From Croceivirga sp. (GTDB lineage: Bacteria; Bacteroidota; Bacteroidia; Flavobacteriales; Flavobacteriaceae), in assembly GCA_028281025.1 (NCBI GenBank), contig JANQKR010000048.1:1-64000 (forward strand): a stretch of DNA of 64,000 bases. Reading direction: 5' to 3'. Made by a program: the position numbers and the translations under genes. Of this stretch, positions 29,771 to 57,496 are shown in pieces. The notes under the pieces were generated by a model. That model made no database searches. It was not told where the DNA came from and worked only from the letters and a program-made list of their open reading frames with translations. How positions within the stretch are numbered: the first letter of the stretch is position 1; each line of letters starts with the position of its first letter.

Positions 29771-31321
29771 TTATCTAAATCCATTATTGGTCGGGTCCGA
29801 TTCAAGAAGATTTGGGTTTATGATGATCTGTTCCTGTGGTATTGGATACTTCACGTTTCTCGGCAGTATATTCGTTGCAGCATTATTGAATGGTAGGTAT
29901 TCGGTGTTTTGAACCGTCTCCACTAAAATTCCCCAGCGGATCAAGTCAAGCTTTCGATGACCTTCGGCGGCCAATTCGAACTTACGTTCGTCACGAATGG
30001 CCATTCGCAATTCGTTTTGGCTCATCCCGCTATACGGTTGATCGGGTTCAAAAGCCCTTTCCCGCACGGCATTGATATAAGAATAAGCTCCGCCCGGACC
30101 ATTTAACTCATTTTCCGCTTCAGCGGCCATCAAATACACATCGGCGAGGCGAAAAACTACTGCATTGTCATGGTGGTTTTCACGTCTTGACTCCAACTGG
30201 TCCAGGTTCCAATTCTTTTTGAAGTATGGAAAATTCAAATCAAAGCCCAAATGCTGTTGGGTAATGGTAACATCATACCTTAAATCCCCATCTTGCCAGT
30301 TGGCCTGGTCTGCAAAGCCCTGCACGGGAATGGCCAATCCGAATCCAGTCATGTCCTGGTCCAATTCTGCCATTGCCGCCTGGAGCAACTCGAACCTTCT
30401 AGGTGTACCAGGGCCACCAGGTCTGTTACCACGTCGTGTGGGTTCATCCCGAATACGAGGGTTGAAGAAATCGGTAAACCGCGAACTCCTGTCATCCGCC
30501 TTGTAGTCTATTAAAAATAGTTGTTCATCATTGTAGGCATTGTCCGGGTCCAACTGATCAAAAACATCCGCAAAATTATCAAGTAGCCTATGTGGGGAAT
30601 TGTTGATTACAAAATCGCATTCTTCTTTGACCTGCGACCATTCTTCGTCCAGGAGGTGAAATTTCGCCTTCAGGGTAGCGGCGGCATATCTGGTTGCCCT
30701 ACTCACATTTTCCGGATAACTTTCAGGAAGTAAGGTAATGGCCCTTTCAAGATCCGCTTTCATATCGGCTATTATCAATTCCTCATCAAAACGCCCCAGT
30801 TCACCGGCTTCTATGGGATTCATCAACTCTCTAATGTAGGGCACATCACCCCAAATATTGGTCAAATGATAATAGGCCAGGGCCCTAAGAAAAAGAAGTT
30901 CGCCCACCGCCAAATTTCGGGTATCTTCAGTCAGGTTTTCATTGCCCTCGATCCTGGTCAGGAATTCTACCGTGGCGTTCACCACTTCATAGCAGTCCTC
31001 CCAGACGTTATTGAGGTCACTTACTCCTTCACCGTAAGAGTAACTGGATTGATCACTGGTTGCTCCCGCGTTCCTACTGGACTCCAGAATATCGGATCCA
31101 TAATGATAAAAATCATTTATACCGGGCCAATTGTAGATACCCTGTCTTCCTAAGATGGAATAGGCACCGTTCACGGCCAATTGTGCTTCATCCGCTGTGT
31201 TGAAAAAATTGGCAGGGGATACCTCGTCCCTTAGGTCTTCTTCAAGAAAATCGTCGCAGCCATGAAAGACCGTCATGCCGATCACTACCAAAAAAATGAG
31301 CTTATATCTATAATTTTTCAT
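29771..31321 (-). CDS. SusD/RagB family glycan-binding outer-membrane lipoprotein
   Basis: 516 residues from the ATG at 31321: MKNYRYKLIFLVVIGMTVFHGCDDFLEED has a lipobox (FHGC, Cys22) followed by the typical acidic DDFLEE start. Visible SusD hallmarks are the tetratricopeptide region (ADEAQLAVNGAYSILG, LFLRALAYYHLTNIWGDVPY) and the C-terminal APEELIWRKFELAAE-type helix (RDERKFELAAEGHRKLDLIRW) with YPIPQEQIIINPNL at the end. It binds oligosaccharide at the mouth of the SusC channel. The start lies 10 nt after the susC stop. A frame to 31351 overlaps susC and was not used. Confidence 0.93.
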   Translation of the reverse strand: MKNYRYKLIFLVVIGMTVFHGCDDFLEEDLRDEVSPANFFNTADEAQLAVNGAYSILGRQGIYNWPGINDFYHYGSDILESSRNAGATSDQSSYSYGEGVSDLNNVWEDCYEVVNATVEFLTRIEGNENLTEDTRNLAVGELLFLRALAYYHLTNIWGDVPYIRELMNPIEAGELGRFDEELIIADMKADLERAITLLPESYPENVSRATRYAAATLKAKFHLLDEEWSQVKEECDFVINNSPHRLLDNFADVFDQLDPDNAYNDEQLFLIDYKADDRSSRFTDFFNPRIRDEPTRRGNRPGGPGTPRRFELLQAAMAELDQDMTGFGLAIPVQGFADQANWQDGDLRYDVTITQQHLGFDLNFPYFKKNWNLDQLESRRENHHDNAVVFRLADVYLMAAEAENELNGPGGAYSYINAVRERAFEPDQPYSGMSQNELRMAIRDERKFELAAEGHRKLDLIRWGILVETVQNTEYLPFNNAATNILPRNVKYPIPQEQIIINPNLLESDPTNNGFR

Positions 31322-31331
31322 GATTAGTTTT

Positions 31332-34300
31332 TTAAAATTCCAAAATAACACCTAAAGTAAATGACCTTGCATAAGGATAAACCCCTCCAGCAAAACCTTG
31401 CGAGACCGAGTTGGTTCCACTATTATTGGTAAAGTTGCTCACCTCTGGATCTCCCAATCTAAAATCGGAGAGCAACCAGAGATTGGTGCCCGTTAGGTAG
31501 AGGTTCAATCGATTAAAGGTGTTTTTTATTATTGAGTCCTCCATGGGGACATCATAACTTAATGTGGCCTGTCTTAACCTTAGGAACGAACCATCTTCGA
31601 TATTAACGCTACTGTTGGGGTTGAACAGGCTTGTGGACGCACCGGCACGTGGAATGTCCGATGTTTCATTGACATCTTCCCGCCATCTATTCAGCACAAT
31701 GGGATCTAGATTTTGGTCTCCTCGACCAAAAAATGCAGTTTGGGACCTTATGTTAAAAATCTCATTGCCGTACTGACCGTGGAAGAATAGGTCAATGGAT
31801 AGATTTTTGTACGTGAACGTATTTCTGATACCTCCGAAAAAATCGGGCTCGGGCGTACCAAGAATTTGTACGTCCTCATTGTTCCATACGGGATTATCAT
31901 CCAAATTCTGGAATCGGGGCCCACCTATAAAGGAAAGTCCTTCCCGACCATCATCAATAATTTCCTGGGCAGTTTTATAGGTGCCCAAATAATTAAGCCC
32001 GACAAATACCGGCAAACGTTCACCCACAATCAGCCGGGCAGAGCTACCTCCCTGGTTCCCTGTGCTTTGAATGCCGATAAAGTCCCTTCCATCCAACTCA
32101 AGCACTTCGCTTTTATTGGTGGATATCGCTATTTCCGATTCCCATCTAAAATTGGGCGTATTAATATTTATCGTGTTCAATGCAATTTCAAATCCTTGAT
32201 TCCTGACCGATCCTATATTCTGTAATTGGGTACCTCCCCCTGCTTGGGCGGCAATGGCCGTTCCAAGCAGTAGATCCTCCGTCTTCTTATTGTAATAATC
32301 AACCTCAAGGCTTAAGCGATTCTTAAAAAGGCCCAGTTCCAGGCCAATGTCCAATTGTTTTGTGGTTTCCCATTTAAGCCCATCACTGGGTATTCTAGCA
32401 GGTAGGACCCCATTGGTCAATTGGTTGTTGAACACGGTATTGACCACATTGTAAATGGGCAATGAATTGTACGTACTCACCCCTTGCTCACCAACAATAC
32501 CATAACTGCCCCTAATTTTTAACCTGTTGATGGTTTCGGAATCCCTCAGAAAGTTTTCCTGGTCTATGTTCCATGCCACACCTACCGACGGGAAAAAAGC
32601 ATATTTTTCGCCCTCCTCAAAAACCGATGAACCATCATACCTGCCAACCAGGGTCAATAGGTACCTACTGTCAAAACTATAGTTTACACGGCCAAGAAAC
32701 GAGGTAAGGGTTCTTTGGTTATATCCCGAATTTACCCCATTTTGCAAAGGGTCGCCCAGTGAGAGTTCGTTGAACGAAAGCGCATCCAGAGGAATTTGGG
32801 TTGCTGACGAAAAAGCACTTTCGGAAGTGTTTTTTTGCCAGGTAAAACCGCCCAAAAACTTTAAGGCATGTTTTCCCAGGTTTACATCATAATTAAAGGT
32901 GTTTTCATTCAACAGGCTTTGTTGAAAGTTGGTTTCAACACTTGCAAAGCCTCCATTACCGGCTATGACACGCTCAGGCAATAGACCAGGTCGAAAATCA
33001 TTTTCTTTCGTGTACGTAAGCTCGGCGCCGAAAGTGGTTCTTAATTTAAAGTTTTTGAACAGTTCGTACTCACCATAGACGTTGGCCAACATATTGGTGA
33101 CTAAGTTATGGTCCACACGCAATTCTATATCCGCAATAGGGTTTCGCTGTGTTGAAGAGCTGATCGGATTGGTTCCCGTAAAATTTCCATCTTCGTCATA
33201 AACGGCCCTGATCGGTAATACTGAGGTAACGATCCCTGAATAGGATACTTTGTTGTTTTCCCGCTTGAAATGTGAACCGTTAAAACGAAGTCCAAAATTG
33301 AATCGTTCACTGGGCCGTATATCAATATTGGTCCTTAAGGTATATCTTTCAATACCTGATGCCCTAACAACGCCTTTTTGATCAAAATGATTGAGCGCAA
33401 CATAATAGTTACTGTTTTCAGAGCTACCTGCAATGGATAGGTCCGTATTGGTCACAAAGCCTGTTTGCGAAATTATATCAAGCCAATCGGTATCCGGGAT
33501 GTCGCTTCCGTCAAATTGCAAGGGCAAATCTGGATCAATGGCACCAAAGCCATCGTCACCGGGAACAAACTGCCCGGACTCATTGATATAGTCGACATAG
33601 CCTTGGCCACCCAAAATTTCAATTTGGTTGGCGGTTTCCTGAATACTGGTGTAATGGTTCAAGGTGATTATGGGCTTGGCCTGCGAAATGCCTTTGCCAT
33701 TTTTGGTGGTCACCAGTATAACACCGGCGGCACCCCTGGTACCGTAAATGGACAGGGCCGTGGCATCTTTTAATATTTCTACCGATTCAATGTCATTGAC
33801 ATTAAGGTTGTTAAGGTTGAAATCGGTACCGGTGATAAAACCATCTACCACGTAAAGGGGCGCATTGTTGCCATTAATGGAACTGTTACCACGAATTCTG
33901 ATAGTGGAGCCGGCCCCTGGTGTACCATTATTGGAAGTGACGGATACCCCGGTGGCCCTACCCTGAAGGGCTTGGTCCAGCCTTACGACAGGTTGTTTTT
34001 CAAATGCATCGGATTTTACCTGTGCCACTGAAGACACCAAATCCTTCTTTGTTATTGTGCCGTAACCAATGACCACCACCTCGTCCAATTGTTCGGTATC
34101 TTCCCTAAGTACTACTTCAATGGTGGTTTGTCCGTTCAATGGGATTTCCTGGGCAACAAAACCAATATAAGAAATGGAAAGTACTGCATTCCGATTGGAG
34201 ACGTTGATCACAAAATTTCCATCAAAATCCGATTGCACCCCATTGGTCACTCCTTTTTCTATAATGTTTGCTCCCGGTAAAGGCATTCCGTCTTCGGTCA

Positions 34301-34430
34301 AAATTGTACCTTGGACCCTAACATTATCTTGAGCCTGTACGATGCTGCCGGAACTTAACAAAAAAAGAAAAAGGCAAAAGCATGGCCATGCGCGTTTTTT
34401 ATGAAAAACGCTGATTTTTAGTTGATTCAT
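31332..34430 (-). CDS. SusC/RagA family TonB-linked outer-membrane transporter
   Basis: 1032 residues with a signal peptide (cleavage near VQAQDN). A carboxypeptidase-regulatory domain follows (VQGTILTEDGMPLPGANIIE, QSDFDGNFVINV), then the TonB box region DEVVVIGYGTITKKDLVSS. Next come the plug motif RGNSSINGNNAPLYVVDGFI and a ~700-residue barrel ending YARSFTLGVILEF. SusC pairs with SusD to import oligosaccharides through the outer membrane using TonB energy. Here it is the first gene of the susCD unit on the minus strand, and a -7 element lies at 34471-34478. Its substrate is inferred from the enzymes of the divergent operon. Confidence 0.95.
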   Translation of the reverse strand: MNQLKISVFHKKRAWPCFCLFLFLLSSGSIVQAQDNVRVQGTILTEDGMPLPGANIIEKGVTNGVQSDFDGNFVINVSNRNAVLSISYIGFVAQEIPLNGQTTIEVVLREDTEQLDEVVVIGYGTITKKDLVSSVAQVKSDAFEKQPVVRLDQALQGRATGVSVTSNNGTPGAGSTIRIRGNSSINGNNAPLYVVDGFITGTDFNLNNLNVNDIESVEILKDATALSIYGTRGAAGVILVTTKNGKGISQAKPIITLNHYTSIQETANQIEILGGQGYVDYINESGQFVPGDDGFGAIDPDLPLQFDGSDIPDTDWLDIISQTGFVTNTDLSIAGSSENSNYYVALNHFDQKGVVRASGIERYTLRTNIDIRPSERFNFGLRFNGSHFKRENNKVSYSGIVTSVLPIRAVYDEDGNFTGTNPISSSTQRNPIADIELRVDHNLVTNMLANVYGEYELFKNFKLRTTFGAELTYTKENDFRPGLLPERVIAGNGGFASVETNFQQSLLNENTFNYDVNLGKHALKFLGGFTWQKNTSESAFSSATQIPLDALSFNELSLGDPLQNGVNSGYNQRTLTSFLGRVNYSFDSRYLLTLVGRYDGSSVFEEGEKYAFFPSVGVAWNIDQENFLRDSETINRLKIRGSYGIVGEQGVSTYNSLPIYNVVNTVFNNQLTNGVLPARIPSDGLKWETTKQLDIGLELGLFKNRLSLEVDYYNKKTEDLLLGTAIAAQAGGGTQLQNIGSVRNQGFEIALNTININTPNFRWESEIAISTNKSEVLELDGRDFIGIQSTGNQGGSSARLIVGERLPVFVGLNYLGTYKTAQEIIDDGREGLSFIGGPRFQNLDDNPVWNNEDVQILGTPEPDFFGGIRNTFTYKNLSIDLFFHGQYGNEIFNIRSQTAFFGRGDQNLDPIVLNRWREDVNETSDIPRAGASTSLFNPNSSVNIEDGSFLRLRQATLSYDVPMEDSIIKNTFNRLNLYLTGTNLWLLSDFRLGDPEVSNFTNNSGTNSVSQGFAGGVYPYARSFTLGVILEF

Positions 34431-34470
34431 AGCTTTCAGTTTAGTTAGTTATCAGTTATTTATACTGAAA

Positions 34471-34478
34471 CAAAACTA
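34471..34478 (-). promoter_or_regulatory. Candidate -7 element of the susCD unit
   Basis: Minus-strand TAGTTTTG matches TAnnTTTG about 40 bp ahead of the susC start. No TTG is at the right distance upstream, which is common where an activator such as the adjacent hybrid sensor is needed. Confidence 0.45.
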
Positions 34479-34543: not shown

Positions 34544-37500
34544 TCAATTTTTTGCAACTTTTTGTTTATAGGACGATGGTAGGCATTGGAACTGTTTTTG
34601 GAAACAGGTCTTAAAATATTTGTAATCATTGAAGCCCACATCATACGCAATTTCACTTAAATTCATGTCGGTGGTCAAAATCAATAAAGCCGCCCTTTTT
34701 AAACGTATCGATCTAATAAACGCGGTTAGGGATAGGTCTGTCAATGATTTCATTTTCCGGTAAAGGGTAGACTGGCTCATATGTAGTTCTTCCACTAAAT
34801 TGTCTATTCCAAAGTTTGGGTTGTGCAGATTGTTCTCCACAACGAGCATCGCTTTTTGAATAAAGGCGTTTTCCGGTTCATTGACCTCATCTACTTCAGA
34901 ATCTGACGGTTCAAACCAAATTTTGTTCGTTAAGTATTCTTTTAGCCTGGAACGATTTTGCAGTAATCCGGTAATTCTGGCCTTTACCACATTGGGGTTA
35001 AACGGTTTGGTAATATAATCGTCCGCTCCGGTTTTCAAACCTTCTATCTCAAAAACGGTTGATGTTCTTGCGGTCAATAAAATAATGGGGATGTGCGAAG
35101 TATTTTTATGGGACTTTAGACCTTTGCAAAGTGTAATACCATCCGTTTCCGGCATCATTACATCACTTATGATCAGATCGGGCATTTTTTCCATTGCCAT
35201 ATCATAGCCTTCTTTGCCGCCCTCGGCCCTCAATACCTTATACTGTTCAGAAAGCACATCCTCTAAATAATCCAGGATTTCAGTATTGTCATCAATTATA
35301 AGTATGGTAACTTTTTGGGATGTCACATCGAGGGGGGCAATTTGTTTTTTGGTTTTCCGTGGATAGGCCGCTATGTTATCCGTTCTTATAAACGCATCAT
35401 TGATATTGTCTTTGTAGAATGTGGGATCCGTCCCTATTTTAATGGTAAACTCAGACCCTTCATTTTTTTTGCTCTTTACCGTGATGGAACCATTGTGCAG
35501 TTCAATAATTTTCTTGGTAAAGGCAAGTCCAATACCACTTCCGATCATTTGGCTGGAGCTTGCACTTTTGATCTGAAAGTACATGTCAAAAATCTTGTCC
35601 AGGTTTTTCGAGCTTATTCCAATGCCCGTGTCCTGTATGATCAACACACACTTTTTAGCTTCAGATTTTAGTCTCAAAGTTATCCGATCTCTTGGTCCGC
35701 TATATTTTAAGGCATTTGACAATAGGTTGCAAAGTGCAATTTCCATCTTGTTCCTATCAAAAGGGAAGCACAGTTCTTCCACCTCCGGTTCAAAATGGTA
35801 TGAAATCCCTTTCTCTTTGGCCAAGTCCTTAAAATAGAGAAACACTTCGTTGGAGAACCTGACGAAATTACCTTCGGACGCGTTTAATTGTAAATGCCCT
35901 TTTTCTGCTTTTCTAAAATCCAATAATTGATTTATCAAATTCGATAACCTATTGGTGTTTCGCTCTACGATATTGATTTTATTCTTTACATTATCGTTCA
36001 GAACTTCAATGCTTTGAAGTTCCTGTAGTGGCCCCTGCATTAACGTTAGTGGTGTTCTAAATTCATGGGATATGTTGGTGAAAAAGTTGAGTTTGGTTTC
36101 ATTTATTTCGTACTCTTTTTCCTTTTCCATCTTTAGGATCTCCACATTCCTTTTTAGTACAAGCTGTTTCTGCTTAAATTTTAGGAACGTATAAATGGCA
36201 AGGCCCGTTAGCAATACATAAATGAAAAATGCCCATGTGCTCAGCCAAGGTGACTGTGCAACTCGTATCTCCATTGTTTTACTGGGCCCCCAGTTTTGAT
36301 TGTCCCTTGTGCCCGCCACCTGTAATTGGTAATGTCCTGCAGGTAGACTGGCAAAGTTTATTTCGTTTTTATCGAGCAGATCAATCCAATTTTCATGTAT
36401 TTCCTTTAATCGATATCTGTACTTGACGTTCAGGTTTCCCAAAAAATCATTGGTATTGAAACCGATGGACAGGAAATCATGATCTGAATCCAATTGAATC
36501 TCTTTTGCGTAGCTGAAGTTTCTGTCTATAATGGCATTCTCCCCCTTATATTCTATTTTTTCGTTGTTTACCCTTAAGCTCGAAAAAACGATTTCCGGGA
36601 TTTCATTCGGTATTTCAATATTGTAGGGGTCAAAATAGGTTATGTTGTTAATGCCTCCGAAATAGAGCTGTCGGTTTTGAAAGTTATAAGCGCTCCTATC
36701 ATTAAAAGCTATGGTGTTTTCACCATCCCGTTCCCCGAACGTTAAAAAAGATTGATTTCCTGGGTTGTATTTGACGATATCGGTAGCGGTGGACATCCAA
36801 ATGTTTTCCTCCCTATCCAAAAGTACTGAGCTGATGTAATCATCTTTGAGTCCATCTTTTGTGGTCAACCGCTGTTGTATGCTTAGTTTTTTTGTGGCCG
36901 CGTCATAACTAAGTTGTATCAGGCCACCTGGGGTTCCCAACCAAATGGTATTGTCCTGGATTTGTATATCATTGATGATGACACTCGGCAGTTCTTCTTT
37001 TAACAACTTTGAATGGTGTATAAATTCATCTTTGGTCGCATCGTATAGATGAAGGCCATGGTATGTCCCAACCCAAATAAGTCCCCTACTATCTTCCACA
37101 ATTCCAGTGATCCTGTCGCTCATTAGCCCAAAATTGTTTTTGGCATTGTTGCGGTAGGATTTATATTTACTTGCATCTGTCATCCCTTTAAGGGGCACTT
37201 TGTAGATGCCCGTTTGTTGTGTACCAATAAAAAGGTTTTCCCTAAAGTCTATGTGAAATGCGGTAACCCGGTTTAAAAAGGTGTTGGAGTATCGTATTTT
37301 ACCATTGATAAGGTCTAGAACCTGAAAGTTTTTTCCCGTACCTACGAACAGTTGGTTCTTATACCGATAAAAACAATTGACCTTATCATTGTCAAAACCT
37401 TTGACTTTTCGTTGATCGTGGATTGACCCACCCTTAAAAACACCGCTTTTGCTAGTGCCGATGAAAAGGTTGGTCGAATCTTTATAAATAGCCGTAATGT

Positions 37501-38566
37501 TTTGATGGCTATCCAATTCTGAACCCCTTAGGTCCAGGCTGGCATTTTTGAACCCTTTATTGGGTGTGAGCTTCACTACACCGGCGTTTGCGGTGCCCAC
37601 CCAAACCTGTTTTTTGGCATCGTGGTGCACGTTTAGGACAATCGCATAATTTTCTTTGATCTGTTGCGTGTTCTTTGGGCTAATTTTAATTTTGTTAAAA
37701 GTGCTAAGATCCTTGTTGCTTTTGTAGAGCCCCTTGCCCCATGTGCCTATCCATAGGTTATTGTCATGGTCCAAAGACAACCTTCTAGAGAAAAAGCTCC
37801 CAACGTTCGTTTCAATACCATCAATGGTTTCCGTTTGGTAATCAAAGTAGAACAATTGGGAATTTTGGCCCCTACAGGACACCCATATCCTGTTCCTGAA
37901 CTCATCATAAACAACATCAAAAAGGGGTGCATTGAGCTTGTAGCTGTCAACCGACTTTTTGTAAATATTGTAGCGTATCAGTTCTTTGTCCGCTGCAAAC
38001 CATAGATCGCCGTTCAGCCCTTTACCGATCCCATAAATTGCTGAATTGTATTCTAAATGTGCGATGCGTGTCTTTTTTATGGGGTCTATTCCATAGATTC
38101 CTTTATCCCACGTACCTATCCAAATAGAATTATCATCGGCCTGTGCAATGCTGTTTATCCTAATATCACCGGTTGCCTCCTGGTCTTTGGATCGAAAAAG
38201 ATGGTTATAATTAAGTACCTCGTTGTTTTCCGGTTTAAAACTGGTCAAACCAGCACTTTTGGTTCCAATCCATATGACATTGTTATTGCCCTTGAACAGT
38301 ATTTCAATGTTCTCGTTCTTTAATTGGTCATAACCCAATGATGGCTTTATATATGAAAAGGTGTATCCATTGAATTTTGTAATACCGTTTTCTGTGGCAA
38401 ACCATTTATTGTTCAATTCATCGCTGACTATCGAGGTGACATAATTATTGGACAGCCCTTCTTCCGTAGAAATGAACTCTTGTATGTAATCATTGGTCCG
38501 GGATTGGGAAAAAACATTGACCATGGAGAGCATAAAAAGCATAAATGGCAAACGAAGGTCTTTCAT
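34544..38566 (-). CDS. Hybrid two-component system sensor/transcription activator (HTCS)
   Basis: 1340 residues in one chain. A signal peptide (~1-21) leads into seven-bladed propeller Reg_prop repeats (~30-690, many (W/L)WIGT(W/K)xxG motifs), a Y_Y_Y Ig domain (~700-780) and a transmembrane helix (~790-812). The cytoplasmic part has HisKA (NISHEFRTPL, phospho-accepting H834), HATPase (NLLSNALKY, DTGIGIS), a receiver domain (LIIDDNTEI, D1135 in SDVMMPETDG) and an AraC HTH (SEIAYDVGFNDYKYFKTCF). HTCS proteins sense oligosaccharide in the periplasm and activate neighbouring utilisation loci. It lies between susCD (same strand) and the divergent enzyme operon, so it is the obvious regulator of both. 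Confidence 0.95.
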   Translation of the reverse strand: MKDLRLPFMLFMLSMVNVFSQSRTNDYIQEFISTEEGLSNNYVTSIVSDELNNKWFATENGITKFNGYTFSYIKPSLGYDQLKNENIEILFKGNNNVIWIGTKSAGLTSFKPENNEVLNYNHLFRSKDQEATGDIRINSIAQADDNSIWIGTWDKGIYGIDPIKKTRIAHLEYNSAIYGIGKGLNGDLWFAADKELIRYNIYKKSVDSYKLNAPLFDVVYDEFRNRIWVSCRGQNSQLFYFDYQTETIDGIETNVGSFFSRRLSLDHDNNLWIGTWGKGLYKSNKDLSTFNKIKISPKNTQQIKENYAIVLNVHHDAKKQVWVGTANAGVVKLTPNKGFKNASLDLRGSELDSHQNITAIYKDSTNLFIGTSKSGVFKGGSIHDQRKVKGFDNDKVNCFYRYKNQLFVGTGKNFQVLDLINGKIRYSNTFLNRVTAFHIDFRENLFIGTQQTGIYKVPLKGMTDASKYKSYRNNAKNNFGLMSDRITGIVEDSRGLIWVGTYHGLHLYDATKDEFIHHSKLLKEELPSVIINDIQIQDNTIWLGTPGGLIQLSYDAATKKLSIQQRLTTKDGLKDDYISSVLLDREENIWMSTATDIVKYNPGNQSFLTFGERDGENTIAFNDRSAYNFQNRQLYFGGINNITYFDPYNIEIPNEIPEIVFSSLRVNNEKIEYKGENAIIDRNFSYAKEIQLDSDHDFLSIGFNTNDFLGNLNVKYRYRLKEIHENWIDLLDKNEINFASLPAGHYQLQVAGTRDNQNWGPSKTMEIRVAQSPWLSTWAFFIYVLLTGLAIYTFLKFKQKQLVLKRNVEILKMEKEKEYEINETKLNFFTNISHEFRTPLTLMQGPLQELQSIEVLNDNVKNKINIVERNTNRLSNLINQLLDFRKAEKGHLQLNASEGNFVRFSNEVFLYFKDLAKEKGISYHFEPEVEELCFPFDRNKMEIALCNLLSNALKYSGPRDRITLRLKSEAKKCVLIIQDTGIGISSKNLDKIFDMYFQIKSASSSQMIGSGIGLAFTKKIIELHNGSITVKSKKNEGSEFTIKIGTDPTFYKDNINDAFIRTDNIAAYPRKTKKQIAPLDVTSQKVTILIIDDNTEILDYLEDVLSEQYKVLRAEGGKEGYDMAMEKMPDLIISDVMMPETDGITLCKGLKSHKNTSHIPIILLTARTSTVFEIEGLKTGADDYITKPFNPNVVKARITGLLQNRSRLKEYLTNKIWFEPSDSEVDEVNEPENAFIQKAMLVVENNLHNPNFGIDNLVEELHMSQSTLYRKMKSLTDLSLTAFIRSIRLKRAALLILTTDMNLSEIAYDVGFNDYKYFKTCFQKQFQCLPSSYKQKVAKN

Positions 38567-38705: not shown

Positions 38706-41891
<3,186 letters not shown>

Positions 41892-41894
41892 GCC

Positions 41895-49342: not shown

Positions 49343-50440
49343 ATGAGTGCCGATTTAAAAACCATAAATTTTAATACTGTGGTGAATGACAAGAAGGTTG
49401 CTCTTTTTACCATTAGGAATTCCCATGGGCTCGAGGCCAAGTTTTCAAATTACGGACAGCATTTGATCGCACTTTGGGTACCGGACAAAGAAGGAAATAG
49501 GGAAGATGTGGTTTTGGGTTGCCCCTCAATAGATGATTACATGGATGAAAAAGCCCAATATTTGGGGGCTTTTATTGGTCGCTACGCAAATCGTATTTCA
49601 GAGGCTACATTTTTTATCGACAATACCATGTACCGACTTCAAAAGAATAATGGTAAAAACCATTTGCATGGAGGATACTTTGGTTTTAATAAAAAGGTAT
49701 GGGAGGCGGAACAAATTGATGATTCCAAAATACAATTCAATGGTATTTCAATGGATGGGGACCAAGGTTACCCCGGTAATCTTGAAACAAGGGTTGAATA
49801 TATGCTGACCGAGGACAATGCCCTTCAAATCGACTATTGGGCCCGTACGGACAAACCTACCCATGTCAACTTTACCAACCATTCATTTTTTAATTTAACG
49901 GGCAATACCAAGAACAATATACTTTCCCATGAATTGATCATTAATGCGGATTTTTACCATCCGGTAAACCAAAACCTTATCCCCAAAGGACTGGCCCAAA
50001 AAGTAAAAGGGACCCCCTTTGATTTTGGAACGGGTAAAAGGATTGGAAAGGATATTTTGAGTGAACACGACCAGATTGCGCTGTGCAAGGGTTATGATCA
50101 TAACTTTGTGTTGAGGAAAGAACCAAAAGACAAACATGGACTTCGTTTTGCAGCTAAGGTAACTGAACCAGAAAGTGGACGCGTACTTGATGTCTTTACG
50201 ACCGAACCAGGGCTTCAATTGTTTACCGGCAATTATTTTGATGGCAGCCTGCAGGGGAAATACGGAAAGGGATACAATCCGTATATTGGATTTTGTTTGG
50301 AAACACAGCATTTTCCGGACAGTCCCAACCGTCCGGATTTTCCCAAAACCCTGTTGCATCCAGACGGGGAATACCGTTCAACAACAATGTATCGGTTTTC
50401 AACAACCGCTGTTTCAGATAAGGACAAATCAAAGCATTAA
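49343..50440 (+). CDS. galM: Aldose 1-epimerase (galactose mutarotase)
   Basis: 365 residues, no signal peptide, so cytoplasmic. It has the mutarotase hallmarks: NHLHGG with H109, FTNHSFFNL with catalytic acid H180, DHNFVLR, and VFTTEPGLQLFTGNY with catalytic base E288. It converts beta-galactose from the galactosidase into the alpha anomer required by galactokinase. It stands first in the galactose block galM-galK-galT, with an 18-bp gap to galK. Placement in a sulfatase/GH2 operon supports galactose as the end product of the locus. Confidence 0.93.
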   Translation: MSADLKTINFNTVVNDKKVALFTIRNSHGLEAKFSNYGQHLIALWVPDKEGNREDVVLGCPSIDDYMDEKAQYLGAFIGRYANRISEATFFIDNTMYRLQKNNGKNHLHGGYFGFNKKVWEAEQIDDSKIQFNGISMDGDQGYPGNLETRVEYMLTEDNALQIDYWARTDKPTHVNFTNHSFFNLTGNTKNNILSHELIINADFYHPVNQNLIPKGLAQKVKGTPFDFGTGKRIGKDILSEHDQIALCKGYDHNFVLRKEPKDKHGLRFAAKVTEPESGRVLDVFTTEPGLQLFTGNYFDGSLQGKYGKGYNPYIGFCLETQHFPDSPNRPDFPKTLLHPDGEYRSTTMYRFSTTAVSDKDKSKH

Positions 50441-50457: not shown

Positions 50458-51603
50458 ATGAATGAAATAACCATAGCTTCTCCTGGCAGAATAAACTTGA
50501 TTGGAGAACATACCGATTACAATGATGGATATGTCTTGCCGGCCGCAATTGACAAATGCATCTACATGACCCTAAAAACCAATGGTACAAAAAGCAGATG
50601 TACCATAAGGAGTAAGGGTTTCGACAATATTTTGGTTGCCGATCTTTTTGATCTGAAACCTGGGACCGAAGGTTGGCATAATTATGTGCTGGGGGTTTTA
50701 AGTGAACTTCAGTTGCTAACTCAAAGTGTAAAGGGTTTTGACTGCGAGATGGAAACCAACGTTCCGGTTGGTTCCGGGGTGAGTTCATCCGCAGCCCTGG
50801 AATGCGGCCTGGCTTTTGGCTTGAATAAATTGTTTGAACTAGGTATTGATGACTGGGAGATAATCAAATTGGGGCAGCGTGCAGAGCACAATTTTGTGGG
50901 CACCCAATGTGGCATTATGGATCAATTTGCATCGGTGATGGGCAAAAAGGACCACGTTATGCTTTTGGACTGCCAATCACTGGATTACCATTACATTCCA
51001 GCCAAAATAAGCCCGTATGTGATTTTGATGCTCAACACCAATGTTACGCATAATCTTTCGACCAGTGGGTATAATACCAGACGGGAAGAAAGCGCATCGG
51101 GACTCAAAATCATTACCGAACACTTTGGAGTTAAAAATTCCTTTAGGAATATCACACTGGAAATGATCAATGAATGCAAGGAAGCACTGGGAAGTATTGG
51201 ATACAAAAGGTGTAGTTACGTCATTGAAGAAAACCAAAGGGTCTTGGAGGCTGCAGATGCGTTGAGGAACAACGATATGGCACATCTTGGGGAATTACTG
51301 TACCAATCCCACCAAGGACAGCGCGAAAAATACGAGGTAAGCTGTCCAGAGCTGGACTTTCTGGTTGAGTTGTCAAAATCGGAGAAGGAAATTTTAGGGG
51401 CCAGAATGATGGGCGGAGGTTTTGGCGGTTGCACCTTGAACCTTATCCATGAAAATAGCGTTGATGATTTTATCATCAGTGCTTCCAAAGCATACAAAAA
51501 ACGGTTCGGGATAGAACTTTCCCATTTTGTGACCGTACCCAGTCAGGGAACATCAATAATCAGGCAAACCAATGAAACTGGATCTAAACGAACATCCCCA
51601 TAG
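50458..51603 (+). CDS. galK: Galactokinase
   Basis: 381 residues of the GHMP kinase family. The galactokinase-specific N-terminal signature is PGRINLIGEHTDYNDGYVLP, the ATP-binding loop is PVGSGVSSSAAL (103-114), the catalytic base is D155 in GIMDQFASVMG, and the closing motif is RMMGGGFGGCTLNL. It phosphorylates alpha-galactose at C1 in the cytoplasm. Its end overlaps galT by 32 bp in another frame, so the two are translated together. Confidence 0.95.
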   Translation: MNEITIASPGRINLIGEHTDYNDGYVLPAAIDKCIYMTLKTNGTKSRCTIRSKGFDNILVADLFDLKPGTEGWHNYVLGVLSELQLLTQSVKGFDCEMETNVPVGSGVSSSAALECGLAFGLNKLFELGIDDWEIIKLGQRAEHNFVGTQCGIMDQFASVMGKKDHVMLLDCQSLDYHYIPAKISPYVILMLNTNVTHNLSTSGYNTRREESASGLKIITEHFGVKNSFRNITLEMINECKEALGSIGYKRCSYVIEENQRVLEAADALRNNDMAHLGELLYQSHQGQREKYEVSCPELDFLVELSKSEKEILGARMMGGGFGGCTLNLIHENSVDDFIISASKAYKKRFGIELSHFVTVPSQGTSIIRQTNETGSKRTSP

Positions 51604-52615
51604 GAGATACAACATATTGACAGGCGAGTGGGTCTTGGTCTCACCACATAGGACCAAGCGGCCATGGCAGGGAAAACAGGAAAAAACGACACCGAATGTT
51701 CGTCCCAAATACGATGAAAAATGTTACCTATGTCCAGGCAACGTGAGAGCTAATGGCAGTGCTAATCCAAAGTATACATCAGTTTACAGTTTTACCAACG
51801 ATTTCTCGGCATTGTTACATGACACCCCTACAACCGTAATCGAGGACGGACTTTTAAAAGCACAGGGTGAATGCGGGATTTGCAAGGTAATCTGTTTTTC
51901 GCCCGACCATTCGTTGACGCTTCCGTTGATGGAAATTTCAGCCATTGAAGAAGTTATTGGTATTTGGCAAAAAGAATATTTGGAATTGGGTTCGAAAAAG
52001 GAAATCAACCATGTCCAGATTTTTGAGAACAAGGGAGCCTTGATGGGATGCAGCAATCCACATCCACATGGACAGATTTGGGCGCAGCATTCCATTCCAC
52101 AGGAAGTTCAAAAAAAGACTACCCAGCAGATGAACCATTGGAATGCGTATGGAAGGAGTTTGCTTGGGGATTATCTCAATCAAGAAATGGGGAAAAAGGA
52201 ACGCATCATTTTTGAAGACGAACATTTTTTGGCCCTTGTTCCTTACTGGGCGGTTTGGCCCTACGAAGTTATGATTGCCCCCAAAAAGGCCTTTCAGCAC
52301 ATAGGACAACTCAACAAGGAAGGAAAGAAGGCTTTTGCGAGGGCCATAAAAACGGTGACCACGAAGTTTGATAACCTTTTTGAAACTTCCTTCCCTTATT
52401 CCATGGGAATTCACCAAGCCCCCACGGAAGGCAAGGATTATCCGGAATGGCATTTTCACATGTCTTTTTACCCTCCCTTGCTCCGTTCAGAAACGGTGAA
52501 AAAATTTATGGTGGGGTATGAGATGTTCGCAAATCCACAGCGCGATATTACTGCTGAAATGGCGGCAGCTACACTTAAAGGGCTTTCAAGTCAACATTAC
52601 ACCCAAAAAGCATAA
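51572..52615 (+). CDS. galT: Galactose-1-phosphate uridylyltransferase
   Basis: 347 residues. The start shows the family opening RRYNILTGEWVLVSPHRTKRPWQG, zinc ligands C51 and C54 in CYLCPG, and the active-site triad region NPHPHGQIW with nucleophile H166. WHFHMSFYPPLLRS near the C terminus is the second histidine-rich signature. It exchanges UMP between UDP-glucose and galactose-1-phosphate in the Leloir pathway. The start is inside galK (32-bp overlap), and the LacI regulator gene begins 6 bp after the stop. Confidence 0.95.
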   Translation: MKLDLNEHPHRRYNILTGEWVLVSPHRTKRPWQGKQEKTTPNVRPKYDEKCYLCPGNVRANGSANPKYTSVYSFTNDFSALLHDTPTTVIEDGLLKAQGECGICKVICFSPDHSLTLPLMEISAIEEVIGIWQKEYLELGSKKEINHVQIFENKGALMGCSNPHPHGQIWAQHSIPQEVQKKTTQQMNHWNAYGRSLLGDYLNQEMGKKERIIFEDEHFLALVPYWAVWPYEVMIAPKKAFQHIGQLNKEGKKAFARAIKTVTTKFDNLFETSFPYSMGIHQAPTEGKDYPEWHFHMSFYPPLLRSETVKKFMVGYEMFANPQRDITAEMAAATLKGLSSQHYTQKA

Positions 52616-52621
52616 GGTAAG

Positions 52622-53650
52622 ATGGCTACAATGACAACCATTAAAGATATGGCAGAAGTATTGCAGGTTTCAACATCGACCATTTCCAGAGCCCTGAGTG
52701 ATAGCCCCGAAATAAGTTCAAAGACCAAGGAAAGGGTTCGGGAAATGGCAAAAACCCTTGGGTATGTTCCCAATCACTATGCAAGAAGCCTAAAATCAAA
52801 GACAACTAAGACCATAGGCGTCGTTGTGCCCAATGTTATCGATGATTTTTTTGCCAAGGTATTGCACGGTATTGAAAAAGAGGCTTCAAAGTATGGCTTT
52901 ACCGTACTCATTACATTTTCAAACGATTCCAAAAAAAGTGAGTATAAAAATCTCCTTACCCTGATCAACCACAGTGTTGATGGCATTTTGATCTCATTTT
53001 CCAAAGAGATCCAAAAATTGGGGGATTATGGGAATATGTTGAAAATAATGGGCTATGGCATACCCATTGTCATGTTTGACCGTATTCATAAGGGACTTCC
53101 CTTTGATTCGGTCACCATCGATGACTTTGCAGGGTCTTATCGTGCAACAAAACACTTATATAATTCGGGGTGCCAAAGAATCGCCTTTTTATCACCGATA
53201 TCCAACACCAGTGTAGGGCGCTCCAGAAAAGAGGGCTACCTTTCGGCACTCAAACGTAAGGAAAACAACAGCCTCCCTTCCTTTTGCATTGAATTTGGAA
53301 GCTATAAAAAGTTCAAGGAACTGTTTTCAAATGTACTTAAAGCGCATAGGCTCGATGGTATTTTGGCAGCAGATGAACTGTCGGCCATTTATTCGCTGAA
53401 CACACTGCAACAGATGGGCTACGAGGTGCCAAGGGAGGTATCCGTAATTGGCTTTACCAATGGTCCAATGGCGCAGTCGGCAAACCCGACTTTAAGTGTG
53501 GTATCCCAACATGCGGAGAGGGTAGGTGCAAAATCCTTTCAAGTGCTGAAAAATCGGTTGACCAATAGTAGGGCAAAAACCAAAAACATAGTCATAGCTT
53601 CAGAATTATTGTTAAGAAATTCGACCAGGGCAATGTATTTAGAGGAATAA
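52622..53650 (+). CDS. LacI-family transcriptional regulator
   Basis: 342 residues. The N-terminal HTH and hinge (TIKDMAEVLQVSTSTISRAL, ~6-26, then PNHYARSLKSK) is followed by a periplasmic-binding-protein-like sensor domain (TIGVVVPNVIDDFFAKVLHG, ILAADELSAI, VIGFTNGP). It sits between galT and the formylglycine enzyme gene, within the run it probably controls, and may sense galactose or a phosphorylated intermediate. No palindromic operator of the classical type was located with certainty upstream of the run. It gives the locus a second control point beside the HTCS. Confidence 0.92.
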   Translation: MATMTTIKDMAEVLQVSTSTISRALSDSPEISSKTKERVREMAKTLGYVPNHYARSLKSKTTKTIGVVVPNVIDDFFAKVLHGIEKEASKYGFTVLITFSNDSKKSEYKNLLTLINHSVDGILISFSKEIQKLGDYGNMLKIMGYGIPIVMFDRIHKGLPFDSVTIDDFAGSYRATKHLYNSGCQRIAFLSPISNTSVGRSRKEGYLSALKRKENNSLPSFCIEFGSYKKFKELFSNVLKAHRLDGILAADELSAIYSLNTLQQMGYEVPREVSVIGFTNGPMAQSANPTLSVVSQHAERVGAKSFQVLKNRLTNSRAKTKNIVIASELLLRNSTRAMYLEE

Positions 53651-53682
53651 GCATCCAAATGGGTGAATCAAAGAAAAATAAA

Positions 53683-54792
53683 ATGTCAAAAACAAACCAT
53701 TTCCACGTGCTTTCACTTTTGATTGTTATCGTTTTGGGCTGTAACAAAAAACCAAAACAGACCGATCTTCAAAATGATGGCGATCAGAATCCTACGGTGG
53801 ATTTAATTGTAGCACTTCCTAAAAACATACAGGCGCCCAAGGGTATGGTCTGGATTCCGGGAGGAGAATTTTATCAAGGTGCGGTTCCTTCGGATACTAT
53901 GGCCATGAACCACGAAAAACCAAGACATAAAGTTGCTGTGGACGGTTTTTTTATGGATATACACGAGGTGACCAACAAGCAGTTTTCCGAATTTGTAAGA
54001 GCGACGGGCTACGTCACGGTTGCAGAACGCGAATTGGAATGGGCGGAAATGAAGAAACAACTTCCGCCAGGTACCAAAAAACCGCATGATTCCATTTTAC
54101 AACCGGGTTCACTCGTCTTTAAAAAAACAATGTCGAGTGTGCCCAATCTTTACGATTATTCACAATGGTGGCAATGGAAAATTGGTGCCAACTGGAAGCA
54201 TCCCAACGGACCAGGGAGTTCCATCAAGGGTAAGGAAAACCATCCTGTTGTTCAGATTGCCTACGAAGATGCCTTGGCCTATTGTAAATGGGTCGGGCGA
54301 AGGCTCCCCACTGAAGCTGAGTGGGAGTATGCCGCGCGGGGTGGTAGGGACAAATCCATCTTTTTTTGGGGAAATGATGTTGGACAACTCAATGCTCATG
54401 CCAACACCTGGGAGGGGGAATTTCCTGTAAAAAATACCGAGGAAGATGGTTTTGAACTAAGGGCCCCGGTAATGAGCTATCCATCCAATGATTTTGGATT
54501 ATATGACATGGCAGGAAATGTCTGGGAGTGGACAAACGATTGGTACAACATCGATTATTATAAAGGATTGGCAGAAAATGGGCAGACGGTCAACCCCAAA
54601 GGTGCCAATACCGCATATAATCCAAGCAATCCATTTCTGCAGGAAAAAATTATTAAGGGGGGATCTTTTTTATGTAGTGTTAGCTATTGTGCCAGCTATC
54701 GCATAAGTGCGAGAATGGCCACTAGCACGGATTCAGGTGCGGAACACTTGGGCTTCCGGACAGTAGTAGGATTGGAAAATCACAAAAAATAA
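53683..54792 (+). CDS. Lipoprotein formylglycine-generating enzyme (SUMF1/FGE family)
   Basis: 369 residues from ATG 53683, chosen over 53659 because the signal MSKTNHFHVLSLLIVIVLGC then has normal length and an A-rich leader (lipobox Cys20). The FGE-sulfatase domain starts at GMVWIPGGEFYQG and includes FMDIHEVTNKQFSEFV, RLPTEAEWEYAARGG and GNVWEWTNDW. In KGGSFLCSVSYCASYRISAR the two active cysteines of true FGEs are both present (C331, C336 by this numbering), and the ending EHLGFRTVV is typical. Many SUMF1-domain proteins lack these cysteines, so a genuine copper- and oxygen-dependent sulfatase-activating enzyme is likely. The lipid anchor puts it on the periplasmic side, with the five CxPSR sulfatases of the same operon as clients. 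Confidence 0.87.
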   Translation: MSKTNHFHVLSLLIVIVLGCNKKPKQTDLQNDGDQNPTVDLIVALPKNIQAPKGMVWIPGGEFYQGAVPSDTMAMNHEKPRHKVAVDGFFMDIHEVTNKQFSEFVRATGYVTVAERELEWAEMKKQLPPGTKKPHDSILQPGSLVFKKTMSSVPNLYDYSQWWQWKIGANWKHPNGPGSSIKGKENHPVVQIAYEDALAYCKWVGRRLPTEAEWEYAARGGRDKSIFFWGNDVGQLNAHANTWEGEFPVKNTEEDGFELRAPVMSYPSNDFGLYDMAGNVWEWTNDWYNIDYYKGLAENGQTVNPKGANTAYNPSNPFLQEKIIKGGSFLCSVSYCASYRISARMATSTDSGAEHLGFRTVVGLENHKK

Positions 54793-54797
54793 TTACC

Positions 54798-55820
54798 ATG
54801 ATATTAGTTACAGGAGGTCTTGGCTATATTGGATCACACACGGTTGTGGAGCTTTTGGAAGAAGGGTTCGAGGTTTTGGTGGTCGATGACCTCTCCAACT
54901 CCTCTTTGGACGTACTTAAGGGCATTGAACGTGCCTGTGGCAAACGTCCTCTTTTTGAATGCCTGAGCCTGAGCAACAGGATATCCGTAAAATCCCTTTT
55001 CCATAAATATCTGGATATCCAGGGCATTATCCATTTTGCGGCCTCCAAAGCCGTAGGCGAGAGTGTCTCAAAACCATTGGCATACTACGACAATAATCTT
55101 ACTTCCCTATTGTTTTTTCTCCAGGAAATGGAAGTCCGTAATCTTTCCATTCCCCTAATTTTCAGTTCCTCCTGTACTGTCTATGGTGAACCGGATACGT
55201 TGCCGATTACCGAACAGGCACCCATAAAAAAAGCAACATCCCCCTATGGGAACACGAAACAAATAGGAGAGGAAATCATATGGGATACCGTAAAAAGTAA
55301 CGAGAAATTGTCAGCGATAATATTGAGGTATTTCAACCCCATAGGAGCACACGACTCTTTGGAAATAGGGGAACTTCCCATCGGTATTCCCCAGAACCTT
55401 GTCCCATTCATTACGCAGACGGCTGTTGGACTACGGGATAAACTAATCGTATTTGGGGATGATTATCCCACTCGGGATGGCACGTGCATTAGGGATTATA
55501 TACATGTGGTTGACTTGGCCAAGGCACATCTGATAGCGCTCCAAAGGCTTATGGCACACAAAAACGAAGATCGATATGAAGTATTTAACCTGGGAACCGG
55601 CAAGGGAAATTCGGTTTTGGAGGTCATAAAGTGTTTTGAACGGGTATCTGGCATGAAATTGAATTATGAGTTAGGTGCGAGAAGGGAAGGGGATGTGGTA
55701 GCGGCTTATGCAGATGTCTCAAAAGCAAATGAACTCCTTAAATGGAACGCAATCCTAAGTCTTGATGACGCTATGGCATCTGCCTGGGAATGGGAACAAA
55801 AAATAAGAACCAACAACTAA
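54798..55820 (+). CDS. galE: UDP-glucose 4-epimerase
   Basis: 340 residues. NAD motif TGGLGYIGSH (5-14), SSSCTVYG (123-130), catalytic Y150 and K154 in YGNTK, and the family tract YFNPIGAH and GTCIRDYIHVVDLAKAH. It interconverts UDP-galactose and UDP-glucose, closing the Leloir cycle that galK and galT open. It is 5 bp from the formylglycine enzyme gene. The symporter gene follows after 14 bp. With this gene the locus has every enzyme needed to send galactose to UDP-glucose. Confidence 0.95.
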   Translation: MILVTGGLGYIGSHTVVELLEEGFEVLVVDDLSNSSLDVLKGIERACGKRPLFECLSLSNRISVKSLFHKYLDIQGIIHFAASKAVGESVSKPLAYYDNNLTSLLFFLQEMEVRNLSIPLIFSSSCTVYGEPDTLPITEQAPIKKATSPYGNTKQIGEEIIWDTVKSNEKLSAIILRYFNPIGAHDSLEIGELPIGIPQNLVPFITQTAVGLRDKLIVFGDDYPTRDGTCIRDYIHVVDLAKAHLIALQRLMAHKNEDRYEVFNLGTGKGNSVLEVIKCFERVSGMKLNYELGARREGDVVAAYADVSKANELLKWNAILSLDDAMASAWEWEQKIRTNN

Positions 55821-55834
55821 AAAGTAATCGTAGT

Positions 55835-57496
55835 ATGGAGAGTTATTTTGACTTATGGGACTATATAGTTTTTATAGTATATGCCCTATTGATCCTGGTT
55901 ATTGGACTTTGGGTTTCCCGGAATAAGGAGGGGCGCCAAAAGACAGCTGAAGACTATTTTTTGGCCAGTAAATCATTGCCATGGTGGGCAATAGGAGCTT
56001 CTTTAATTGCCGCCAACATTTCTGCAGAACAGTTTATTGGTATGTCGGGGTCCGGTTTTGCCCTTGGTATAGGAATTGCCTCCTATGAATGGATGGGAGC
56101 CCTGACATTGATTATTGTAGGAAAGTATTTTCTTCCCATTTTCATAGATAAAGGTATTTATACCATTCCTGAATTTGTTGAAAAACGATTTTCAACCAAT
56201 TTAAAGTCAATTTTGGCCATATTCTGGATTTGCCTGTATGTTTTTGTCAATTTGACTTCCGTTTTATATTTGGGTGGTCTAGCCCTTGAAACCATTTTGG
56301 GTGTGGATATGGTCTACGCCATTATAGGGTTGGCACTATTTGCTGCAGCGTATTCACTTTATGGTGGACTTTCGGCGGTAGCCTGGACCGACATTGTTCA
56401 AGTTGTCTTTCTTGTCCTTGGTGGATTGGTCACCACATATTTGGCTTTAAACAGCGCATCGGGTGGAGAAGGTGCAATGGCCGGCCTAAAAAAAATCTTT
56501 GAGGTTGCTCCAAATCACTTTGATTTAATTTTGGATAAGGGTCATCCTGAATACATTAACCTTCCAGGTATCGGGGTATTGGTTGGCGGGCTGTGGGTTG
56601 CCAATCTTTATTATTGGGGCTTCAACCAATATATAATTCAACGAACATTGGCTGCCAAATCACTTAAAGAATCACAGAAGGGAATTTTATTTGCGGCAGC
56701 ACTGAAGCTCATTATACCCTTAATTGTTGTTATTCCTGGGATTGCCGCCTATGTAATTGTCAATGACCCTCAAATTCTTTCATCCCTTGGTGATTTAGGT
56801 ACCACCAATATCCCTTCTTCAGGGGCATCCGATAAAGCCTATCCCTGGTTAATGCAGTTCTTACCAACTGGTTTAAAAGGGGTAGCCGTGGCCGCCTTGT
56901 CAGCGGCAATTGTTTCTTCCCTGGCCTCAATGCTGAATTCAACCTCAACCATTTTCACAATGGATGTCTATAGACAATATTTCAACACAAACGCAAGCAG
57001 TAAGGAAACCGTCAATGTTGGAAGGTTGTCCGCAGCAATTGCTTTGATAATTGCCATGGTCATTGCACCGCTTTTGGATGGACTTGACCAGGCTTTTCAA
57101 TTCATTCAGGAATACACAGGTATTGTGAGTCCTGGTATTTTAGCGGTTTTTTTATTAGGTCTTTTCTGGAAAAAAACAACGAACAAAGGGGCTATCATTG
57201 GGGCATTGATTTCCATACCGATTGCCATGTTTTTTAAAGTAGGGCCAAAAGGTTGGGCCCAGGATAGTGCTTTGGAGTATTTGTTTCCCACGCTACCATG
57301 GATGGATCAAATGGGGCTGACCTGTTTGGCCACTATGCTTGTGATTGCTTTGGTCAGTTATTGGCAGAACAAAGGGAAAGATGATGGGAAGGGTATACGA
57401 TTTTCAAAAAACACTTTTAAGACCAGTCCCTTGTTTAACATTATATCCTTTACCATACTGTTGGTTTTAGCATTGTTGTACGCTTTGCTCTGGTAA
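55835..57496 (+). CDS. Sodium/sugar symporter of the SSS family (SGLT-like)
   Basis: 553 residues from ATG 55835 (MESYFDLWDYIVFIVYALL), with about 14 transmembrane helices. SSS features include EDYFLASKSLPWWAIGASLIA, SAEQFIGMSGSGFALG in helix 2, and YSLYGGLSAVAWTDIVQ. It would carry galactose or a small galactoside across the inner membrane with sodium, the step between periplasmic hydrolysis and GalM/GalK. A frame starting at 55790 overlaps galE and adds a hydrophilic tail, so the later ATG is preferred. It is the last gene of the run. Confidence 0.93.
   Translation: MESYFDLWDYIVFIVYALLILVIGLWVSRNKEGRQKTAEDYFLASKSLPWWAIGASLIAANISAEQFIGMSGSGFALGIGIASYEWMGALTLIIVGKYFLPIFIDKGIYTIPEFVEKRFSTNLKSILAIFWICLYVFVNLTSVLYLGGLALETILGVDMVYAIIGLALFAAAYSLYGGLSAVAWTDIVQVVFLVLGGLVTTYLALNSASGGEGAMAGLKKIFEVAPNHFDLILDKGHPEYINLPGIGVLVGGLWVANLYYWGFNQYIIQRTLAAKSLKESQKGILFAAALKLIIPLIVVIPGIAAYVIVNDPQILSSLGDLGTTNIPSSGASDKAYPWLMQFLPTGLKGVAVAALSAAIVSSLASMLNSTSTIFTMDVYRQYFNTNASSKETVNVGRLSAAIALIIAMVIAPLLDGLDQAFQFIQEYTGIVSPGILAVFLLGLFWKKTTNKGAIIGALISIPIAMFFKVGPKGWAQDSALEYLFPTLPWMDQMGLTCLATMLVIALVSYWQNKGKDDGKGIRFSKNTFKTSPLFNIISFTILLVLALLYALLW

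Follow-up and report, generated by a model that had tools for sequence, protein, structure and literature searches.

A Croceivirga locus joining five predicted galactose sulfatases to a complete set of Leloir genes: a probable finishing line for sulfated β-galacto-oligosaccharides

Positions 29771-57496 of a stretch of Croceivirga sp. DNA (the window: bases 1-64000 of contig C1 of assembly GCA_028281025.1, which comprises 5.1 Mb in 49 contigs) hold a 16-gene locus that is probably a polysaccharide-utilization locus (PUL) for sulfated β-linked galacto-oligosaccharides, most likely without 3,6-anhydrogalactose, and that would serve as a finishing line for them. A preliminary description of this DNA had named susC and susD, a hybrid two-component system (HTCS) regulator, a LacZ-type glycoside hydrolase of family GH2, five sulfatases with a CxPSR motif, the gal genes, a LacI regulator, a formylglycine-generating enzyme (FGE) and a symporter; all 16 open reading frames (ORFs) are present at the coordinates listed below and match their families by Pfam or NCBIfam profiles. 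The susC and susD homologues lie side by side (TIGR04056 and SusD_RagB) and are linked to a sensor-regulator and to carbohydrate-active enzymes (the HTCS, the GH2 and the five sulfatases), as is characteristic of a PUL. The SusD, SusC and HTCS genes occupy the minus strand and the remaining 13 genes the plus strand, in the order GH2, five sulfatases, GalM, GalK, GalT, LacI, FGE, GalE and a sodium/solute symporter (SSS). The placing of these last 13 genes on one strand was correct, although their description as mostly overlapping was loosely worded: overlaps occur at only five of the 12 junctions, while 11 of the 12 are within 17 bp. The widest junction lies between the last sulfatase (ending at 49225) and galM (starting at 49343) and measures 117 bp.

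The five sulfatases all match PF00884, carry the CxPSR motif (CMPSR, CSPSR, CAPSR, CAPSR and CTPSR), retain the metal-site acids of S1 formylglycine sulfatases (DDxG and (S/G)D(N/Q)G) and possess a lipobox. A search against all PDB chains gave the following nearest structures:

41895 to 43337, plus strand: sulfatase nearest 7an1 (S1_20, acting on 3-sulfated galactose), 345 bits; in a clade with 7an1 (SH-aLRT 91)
43334 to 44782, plus strand: sulfatase nearest S1_8A (acting on free galactose 2-sulfate), 9bb9, 365 bits
44783 to 46243, plus strand: sulfatase nearest S1_16 (a family for 4-sulfated galactose), 9fo1, 319 bits; without the tryptophan that defines exo action
46240 to 47670, plus strand: sulfatase nearest the S1_19 exo-acting κ-carrageenan 4-sulfatase, 6prm, 375 bits
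47654 to 49225, plus strand: sulfatase nearest S1_15 (6-sulfated galactose), S1_15A 9bas at 627 bits and S1_15B 9bau at 593 bits

The sulfate removed from galactose is described as that at position 3 for S1_20, 2 for S1_8, 4 for S1_16 and S1_19 and 6 for S1_15 (PMC12549532, PMC10154612, PMC6923384, PMC11760155), so that the nearest solved structures allow the set to be read as covering O2, O3, O4 (twice) and O6 of galactopyranose. These families support the earlier proposal of a sulfated, galactose-containing ligand with several sulfate positions. In the S1_20-type enzyme the galactose-recognising histidine aligns with that of 7an1, which we take to be BT1636 of S1_20, the residue presumably being number 177 there. 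A histidine recognises the axial O4 of galactose in S1_20 (PMC10154612). In a tree of 98 rows confined to lengths of 400-680 residues (two sulfatases in stretch L038 of contig C33 fall outside it), the S1_8-type enzyme belongs to an S1_8A clade that excludes S1_8B and S1_8C (SH-aLRT 95; inner branching not resolved), and its scores run from 365 bits for S1_8A to 286 for S1_8B and 185 for S1_8C. S1_8A has an active-site loop that closes on a monosaccharide; the second aligned stretch of the two enzymes is gap-free through YPxxPY...YP, the closure itself being a structural matter. The S1_15-type enzyme groups with S1_15A plus S1_15B (SH-aLRT 94) in a clade that does not separate A from B. The tree contains no S1_19 or S1_16 reference, and these two labels therefore derive from the PDB matches; six of the seven top matches of the S1_19-type enzyme are named carrageenan or S1_19, the seventh just 'Sulfatase', and 6prm has been named S1_19B (PMC10163077).

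The sole glycoside hydrolase of the locus, an exo-type enzyme, directly precedes the sulfatases:

38718 to 41891, plus strand: LacZ-type GH2 β-galactosidase (NF052611, Bga2A, 1083 bits against a cut-off of 999; PDB 6sd0, 836 bits)

It carries WSLGNE plus a 10-residue motif, and its start resembles a signal peptide, with no lipobox. Pfam recognised no endo-acting hydrolase or lyase (a usual but not strict PUL trait) and no α-galactosidase, anhydrogalactosidase or carrageenase in a scan of the 16 ORFs of the locus and 14 ORFs in its flanks. With only an exo-type GH2, and with an FGE that is probably not private to it, the locus deserves the earlier label 'self-contained' only in part. The combination of a lone GH2 with these absences makes an all-β sulfated galactan a likelier ligand than agar or carrageenan, as judged for the locus and the 14 flanking ORFs (no genome-wide search was made for GH110, GH150 and the like). 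A Codium-type or arabinogalactan-type β-galactan would fit best: the galactan of Codium yezoense is β-1,3-linked and mainly 4-sulfated, with some 6-sulfate (PMC3093253), and an S1_8 sulfatase of gut B. plebeius acts on Codium arabinogalactan protein (PMC8406133). GH16 matches occur three times in the genome, on contigs C32, C37 and C29 and none on C1 or C33; these proteins are conceivable sources of the missing endo-enzyme. The only glycan-related match in the flanks is a 3-keto-disaccharide hydrolase domain (PF06439, 35 bits) in the ORF at 20172-21257, 8.5 kb from the locus.

Several observations weigh against a β-galactan ligand or against parts of the scheme. The top matches of four of the five sulfatases come from carrageenan work (S1_8A and S1_15A, the matches of the O2 and O6 enzymes, from a λ-carrageenan pathway; 9fo1 of S1_16 and 6prm of S1_19 from κ-carrageenan), and in PUL-c of Aquimarina GalT and GalK are numbered beside a GH150 (PMC10163077). 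The sulfatases and GH2 might accordingly finish λ- or κ-carrageenan oligosaccharides, with their alternating α and β linkages, made elsewhere. We consider this carrageenan-type alternative unlikely, given that the locus and the 14 flanking ORFs showed no recognisable α-galactosidase, anhydrogalactosidase or carrageenase, and given that S1_20 and S1_16 lie outside the five sulfatases of the published λ cascade (PMC12549532). GH150 and GH110, a trait of λ-carrageenan PULs, are likewise not represented among the 16 ORFs, all of which belong to other families, and no genome-wide model was run for them. The exo action of AMOR_S1_16A on 4-sulfated galactose is attributed to W79, a tryptophan that lies in its 0 subsite and follows the catalytic cysteine by 21 residues (PMC11760155); the S1_16-type sulfatase lacks this trait of AMOR_S1_16A and BT3057, having valine (residue 109, placed by spacing rather than by the 9fo1 alignment) at that position and no tryptophan in residues 81-125. 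The column of the S1_15A lid residue Trp471 holds phenylalanine in the S1_15-type sulfatase, in a region aligned without gaps to S1_15A. Subfamily labels were taken from the nearest PDB chains rather than from SulfAtlas, and the nearest S1_20 outside the genus (genome G012, 57% identity) lies in a 40-kb stretch with no matched Leloir gene. A LacI operator was sought in seven stretches, among them the gaps before galM, GH2 and susC, but none contained an even palindrome (at least six matched pairs, at most one mismatch). Finally, among the ten other genomes of the genus that were searched, the locus was found in one, G002, and in none of the rest.

The galactose part of the locus comprises seven genes:

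49343 to 50440, plus strand: GalM, aldose 1-epimerase (PF01263, 280 bits; NF008277, 355 bits, cut-off 240)
50458 to 51603, plus strand: GalK, galactokinase (TIGR00131, 312 bits, cut-off 227)
51572 to 52615, plus strand: GalT, galactose-1-phosphate uridylyltransferase (NF008724, 514 bits, cut-off 448)
52622 to 53650, plus strand: LacI-family regulator (PF00356 and Peripla_BP_3)
53659 to 54792, plus strand: SUMF1-like FGE (1y1e, 241 bits; cysteine pair in GGSFLCSVSYC; lipobox VLGC)
54798 to 55820, plus strand: GalE, UDP-glucose 4-epimerase (TIGR01179, 391 bits, cut-off 262)
55790 to 57496, plus strand: SSS sodium/solute symporter, probably for galactose (TIGR00813, 388 bits, cut-off 184)

The Leloir set is complete, galM, galK, galT and galE each passing at least one curated cut-off (NF008277, TIGR00131, NF008724 and TIGR01179). 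GalM, which has no lipobox or obvious signal peptide, scores 350 bits with TIGR02636, below the cut-off of 398, and four narrower galactokinase models match GalK below their cut-offs; for the regulator no NCBIfam LacI model reached its cut-off. A loose operator pattern, AAxCGxTT, was discarded as uninformative, its 34 sites being scattered across the window. The genome has two galT genes above the family cut-off and four galactokinase-signature matches, two of them strong; the other strong pair is on C33. The claim that the locus has its own Leloir pathway is thus borne out, though the feature is not unique, there being a second sulfatase locus with galM, galK, galT and SSS in this genome and published loci with galK or galK-galT.

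Linkage of galT with sulfatases is uncommon. In the family, galT (E up to 1e-100) occurs at 65 places in 62 of 149 genomes; 63 places outside this genome were fetched, five of them shortened by contig ends. A sulfatase ORF lies within about 9.5 kb of galT at five (L071, L106, L107, L114 and L121) and at none of the other 58, and an SSS 72-78% identical to that of the locus occurs near galT at 15 of the 63. Close S1_8 homologues are found in 20 genomes, a count that would miss distant members such as that of genome G014; nine others of these also have galT, never within 20 kb on one contig (0/9), and ten have no galT at the threshold. The earlier statement that galactan loci usually depend on a Leloir pathway encoded elsewhere agrees with these counts, with recurrent exceptions. 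One of them, in G014 of another genus (L114 and the stretch upstream), contains SusCD, GH2, S1_8, S1_16, S1_19, S1_15, galE, galK and galT; this independent cluster has a SusC only 27% identical to that of the window locus, has GH2 and S1_19 on the strand opposite to the rest and has an S1_8 of the S1_8C kind. A galK search of named genomes gave 13 loci (Croceitalea, Muricauda/Allomuricauda, Maribacter and more distant Bacteroidota; the best, from Croceitalea, 77% identical), too few for a separate count; in Maribacter algarum (L059) an S1_19-like gene abuts galK-galT.

The Croceitalea locus (L052) shares the gene order galK-galT-lacI-FGE, its proteins being 66-77% identical, and the 10 kb on each side of it contain no sulfatase match, which suggests that the gal-FGE block predates its union with the sulfatase cassette. 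It also lends something to the idea that two units adjoin here by chance, one a PUL for a sulfated glycan that stops at 49225 and the other a galactose operon in its own right from 49343 onwards, as does the 117-bp gap exactly at that boundary, compared with at most 17 bp at the 11 other junctions. This explanation seems to us distinctly unlikely, since both halves share a strand, keep the same order in G002 and are functionally linked by the FGE, and since Leloir genes accompany sulfatases and GH2 in the C33 locus and in G014 too. A third galT locus of G002 (L149:11122-19999 and L150:3-4713) contains GH2, galM, FGE, lacI, galE, galT, galK, an unmatched ORF and SSS; about 9 kb separate its galM from a sulfatase of S1_20-like type.

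The core of the FGE aligns with 1y1e, which we take to be human FGE, including both catalytic cysteines, as in the oxygen-dependent SUMF1 type; the cysteine pair is kept in all 17 FGE sequences longer than 250 residues from the compared loci, that of the window included. The anaerobic sulfatase-maturating enzyme (anSME, TIGR03942) has no match in this genome and none above the cut-off in 11 genomes of the genus, two weak sub-threshold matches occurring in G001 and G009, so sulfatase maturation is probably the task of FGEs; three are present in this genome (E up to 1e-40). Close relatives of the locus FGE (E of 1e-149 or better) occur in nine of the 11 genomes, its own counted, and a weaker one in each of the other two; it is therefore probably a general enzyme residing in a galactose locus, and a role private to the locus was considered unlikely. 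Its precise position is not resolved in the FGE tree. Within the genus an intact FGE lies at most 10 kb from galT at four of ten places (the window, its G002 copy, the third G002 locus and G010), with a fragment near galT in G008 and an FGE about 11 kb away in G007. The probability of such proximity by chance is about 6e-5 for at least three of nine places, a rough figure that assumes two FGEs per 4.5 Mb and in which counting the C33 pair once too would leave eight places. Against a general rule, only two of the 63 galT places of the wider family (L075 and L083) have an FGE match. In G010 (L155:9968-14992) and G008 (L157:8795-11441) the FGE or FGE fragment stands beside galK-galT.

The block is real and maintained, though rare in the genus. 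In G002 the 16 genes recur in unchanged order with 94-99% protein identity, and dN/dS between the two copies is 0.05-0.13 in each of the 16 genes (for S1_8 over about 425 codons, the portion within the fetched stretch), indicating purifying selection. The only other genome of the genus with S1_15 at E up to 1e-100 is G008, at 60% identity and in a different place. The C33 locus, at about 65-97 kb, has an HTCS, SusCD (58% and 56% identical), sulfatases and GH2, followed by galM, galK, galT and SSS (80%). Three of its sulfatases find their best window matches in S1_20, S1_16 and S1_8; it differs from the window locus in having two more sulfatases, another GH2 and two GH43, and in that FGE, lacI and galE have no match among its ORFs. 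Two large proteins of the C33 locus (L039:7780-10413, 877 residues, and L038:3957-8990, 1677 residues, the longer with a type IX secretion tail) have fn3 as their only recognised domain and are possible unrecognised galactan-active enzymes. A paralogous cassette on C43 reads GH2, S1_19, fragment, S1_16, S1_8, S1_15, and one on C42 reads GH2, S1_19 fragment, S1_20, S1_15, galM-like. These short contigs (L043 and L044) both start inside GH2 at the same reading position, and most of their sulfatases share 37-50% identity with the window sulfatases, as paralogous cassettes at assembly breaks. In another sulfatase-rich region, C2:38575-38787 is a sulfatase-like fragment with an internal TGA. The independent G014 cluster, the C43 cassette and the purifying selection on all 16 genes support the finishing-line reading.

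The minus-strand genes are as follows:

29771 to 31351, minus strand: SusD-like glycan-binding lipoprotein (Pfam SusD_RagB, 117 bits; lipobox FHGC; 94% identical in G002)
31332 to 34430, minus strand: SusC/RagA TonB-dependent transporter (TIGR04056, 821 bits; 58% identical to SusC of the C33 locus)
34544 to 38566, minus strand: HTCS regulator (Reg_prop propeller, Y_Y_Y, HisKA, HATPase_c, Response_reg and HTH_18, an AraC-type helix-turn-helix)

Just before the locus (22537-29572) are a TonB receptor, a tandem DUF4249 pair and a 594-residue protein with no Pfam match.

In the scheme that we favour, SusCD would import sulfated oligosaccharides sensed by the HTCS; the five lipoprotein sulfatases, mainly exo-acting, would strip sulfate from O2, O3, O4 and O6 of galactose, some of them acting also on the free sulfated monosaccharide, and the exported GH2 would then free terminal β-galactose. 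The SSS symporter would bring galactose in, and GalM, GalK, GalT and GalE, regulated by LacI, would turn it into glucose-1-phosphate, while the exported oxygen-type FGE would mature the sulfatases and probably serve the whole cell. Endo-cleavage would be supplied from elsewhere, the C33 locus with its two GH43 being a candidate partner. Gene content, families, motifs and conservation are observed; the substrate, the order of steps, the localisation and the regulation are what we infer. The ligand might instead be a sulfated glycan of host or glycoprotein type that ends in sulfated galactose, since in B. thetaiotaomicron mucin-type galactose is desulfated by members of S1_20, S1_15 and S1_16 (PMC10154612); with no hexosaminidase, fucosidase or sialidase recognised among the 16 ORFs, and only galactose-handling genes present, we judge this very unlikely. 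A further idea, to which we give only modest credence, is that the block works as an all-purpose module for finishing galactose sulfates, its sulfatases together clearing O2, O3, O4 and O6 on any parent glycan and so serving several galactan loci, with sulfatase maturation by an exported lipoprotein FGE, in a genome without an anSME match, genetically tied to galactose catabolism; bearing on it, FGE stands beside galK-galT here, in Croceitalea without nearby sulfatases, in G010 and in the third G002 locus. If the finishing-line reading holds, a single compact set of genes would overcome the greatest obstacle of a sulfated galactan, its sulfate groups at several positions, and yield plain galactose feeding central metabolism. 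It would also offer a ready kit of galactose sulfatases with different position preferences for glycan sequencing and the use of algal biomass, and a testable case of sulfatase maturation outside the cytoplasm that is inherited with galactose use in some aerobic Bacteroidota.

Among published systems, the λ-carrageenan PUL of Pseudoalteromonas distincta U2A employs GH2 with S1_8 (2-sulfate) and S1_15 (6-sulfate) exo-sulfatases down to free galactose (PMC12549532). The window locus shares GH2, S1_8 and S1_15 with it, the λ-carrageenan enzymes including the monosaccharide-specific S1_8A and S1_15A, but lacks any recognised counterpart of the GH150 and GH110 that deal with the alternating α/β polymer (PMC12549532). 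It has in addition a full Leloir pathway, FGE, SSS, S1_20, S1_16 and S1_19. PUL 9 of Pseudoalteromonas carrageenovora 9T shares S1_8, S1_15 (two there), galactokinase, a TonB-dependent receptor and SSS; galactokinase is the only Leloir gene named in it, the complete set being on chromosome I, and its description names no GH2 (PMC6262041). PUL-c of Aquimarina sp. ERC-38 is, like the window locus, a flavobacterial sulfatase-rich galactan locus, but has the carrageenan-type GH150 and GH82, with GalM and GalE elsewhere (PMC10163077). Its GalT (Aq1451) and galactokinase (Aq1452) are numbered right after the GH150 (Aq1450), a placement taken from the gene numbers because the text reads 'PUL-c or other loci' (PMC10163077). 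The pairing of galK or galK-galT with sulfatases has therefore been published already (PMC6262041, PMC10163077). In PUL13 of B. plebeius, for sulfated arabinogalactan, S1_8 is pivotal for the sulfated β-galactan of Codium, but that locus is built on GH145 and GH43_24, and its description mentions no Leloir gene (PMC8406133). No description of the exact arrangement was found in titles and abstract openings of the open-licence PMC literature; the locus consists of known parts brought together in uncommon completeness.

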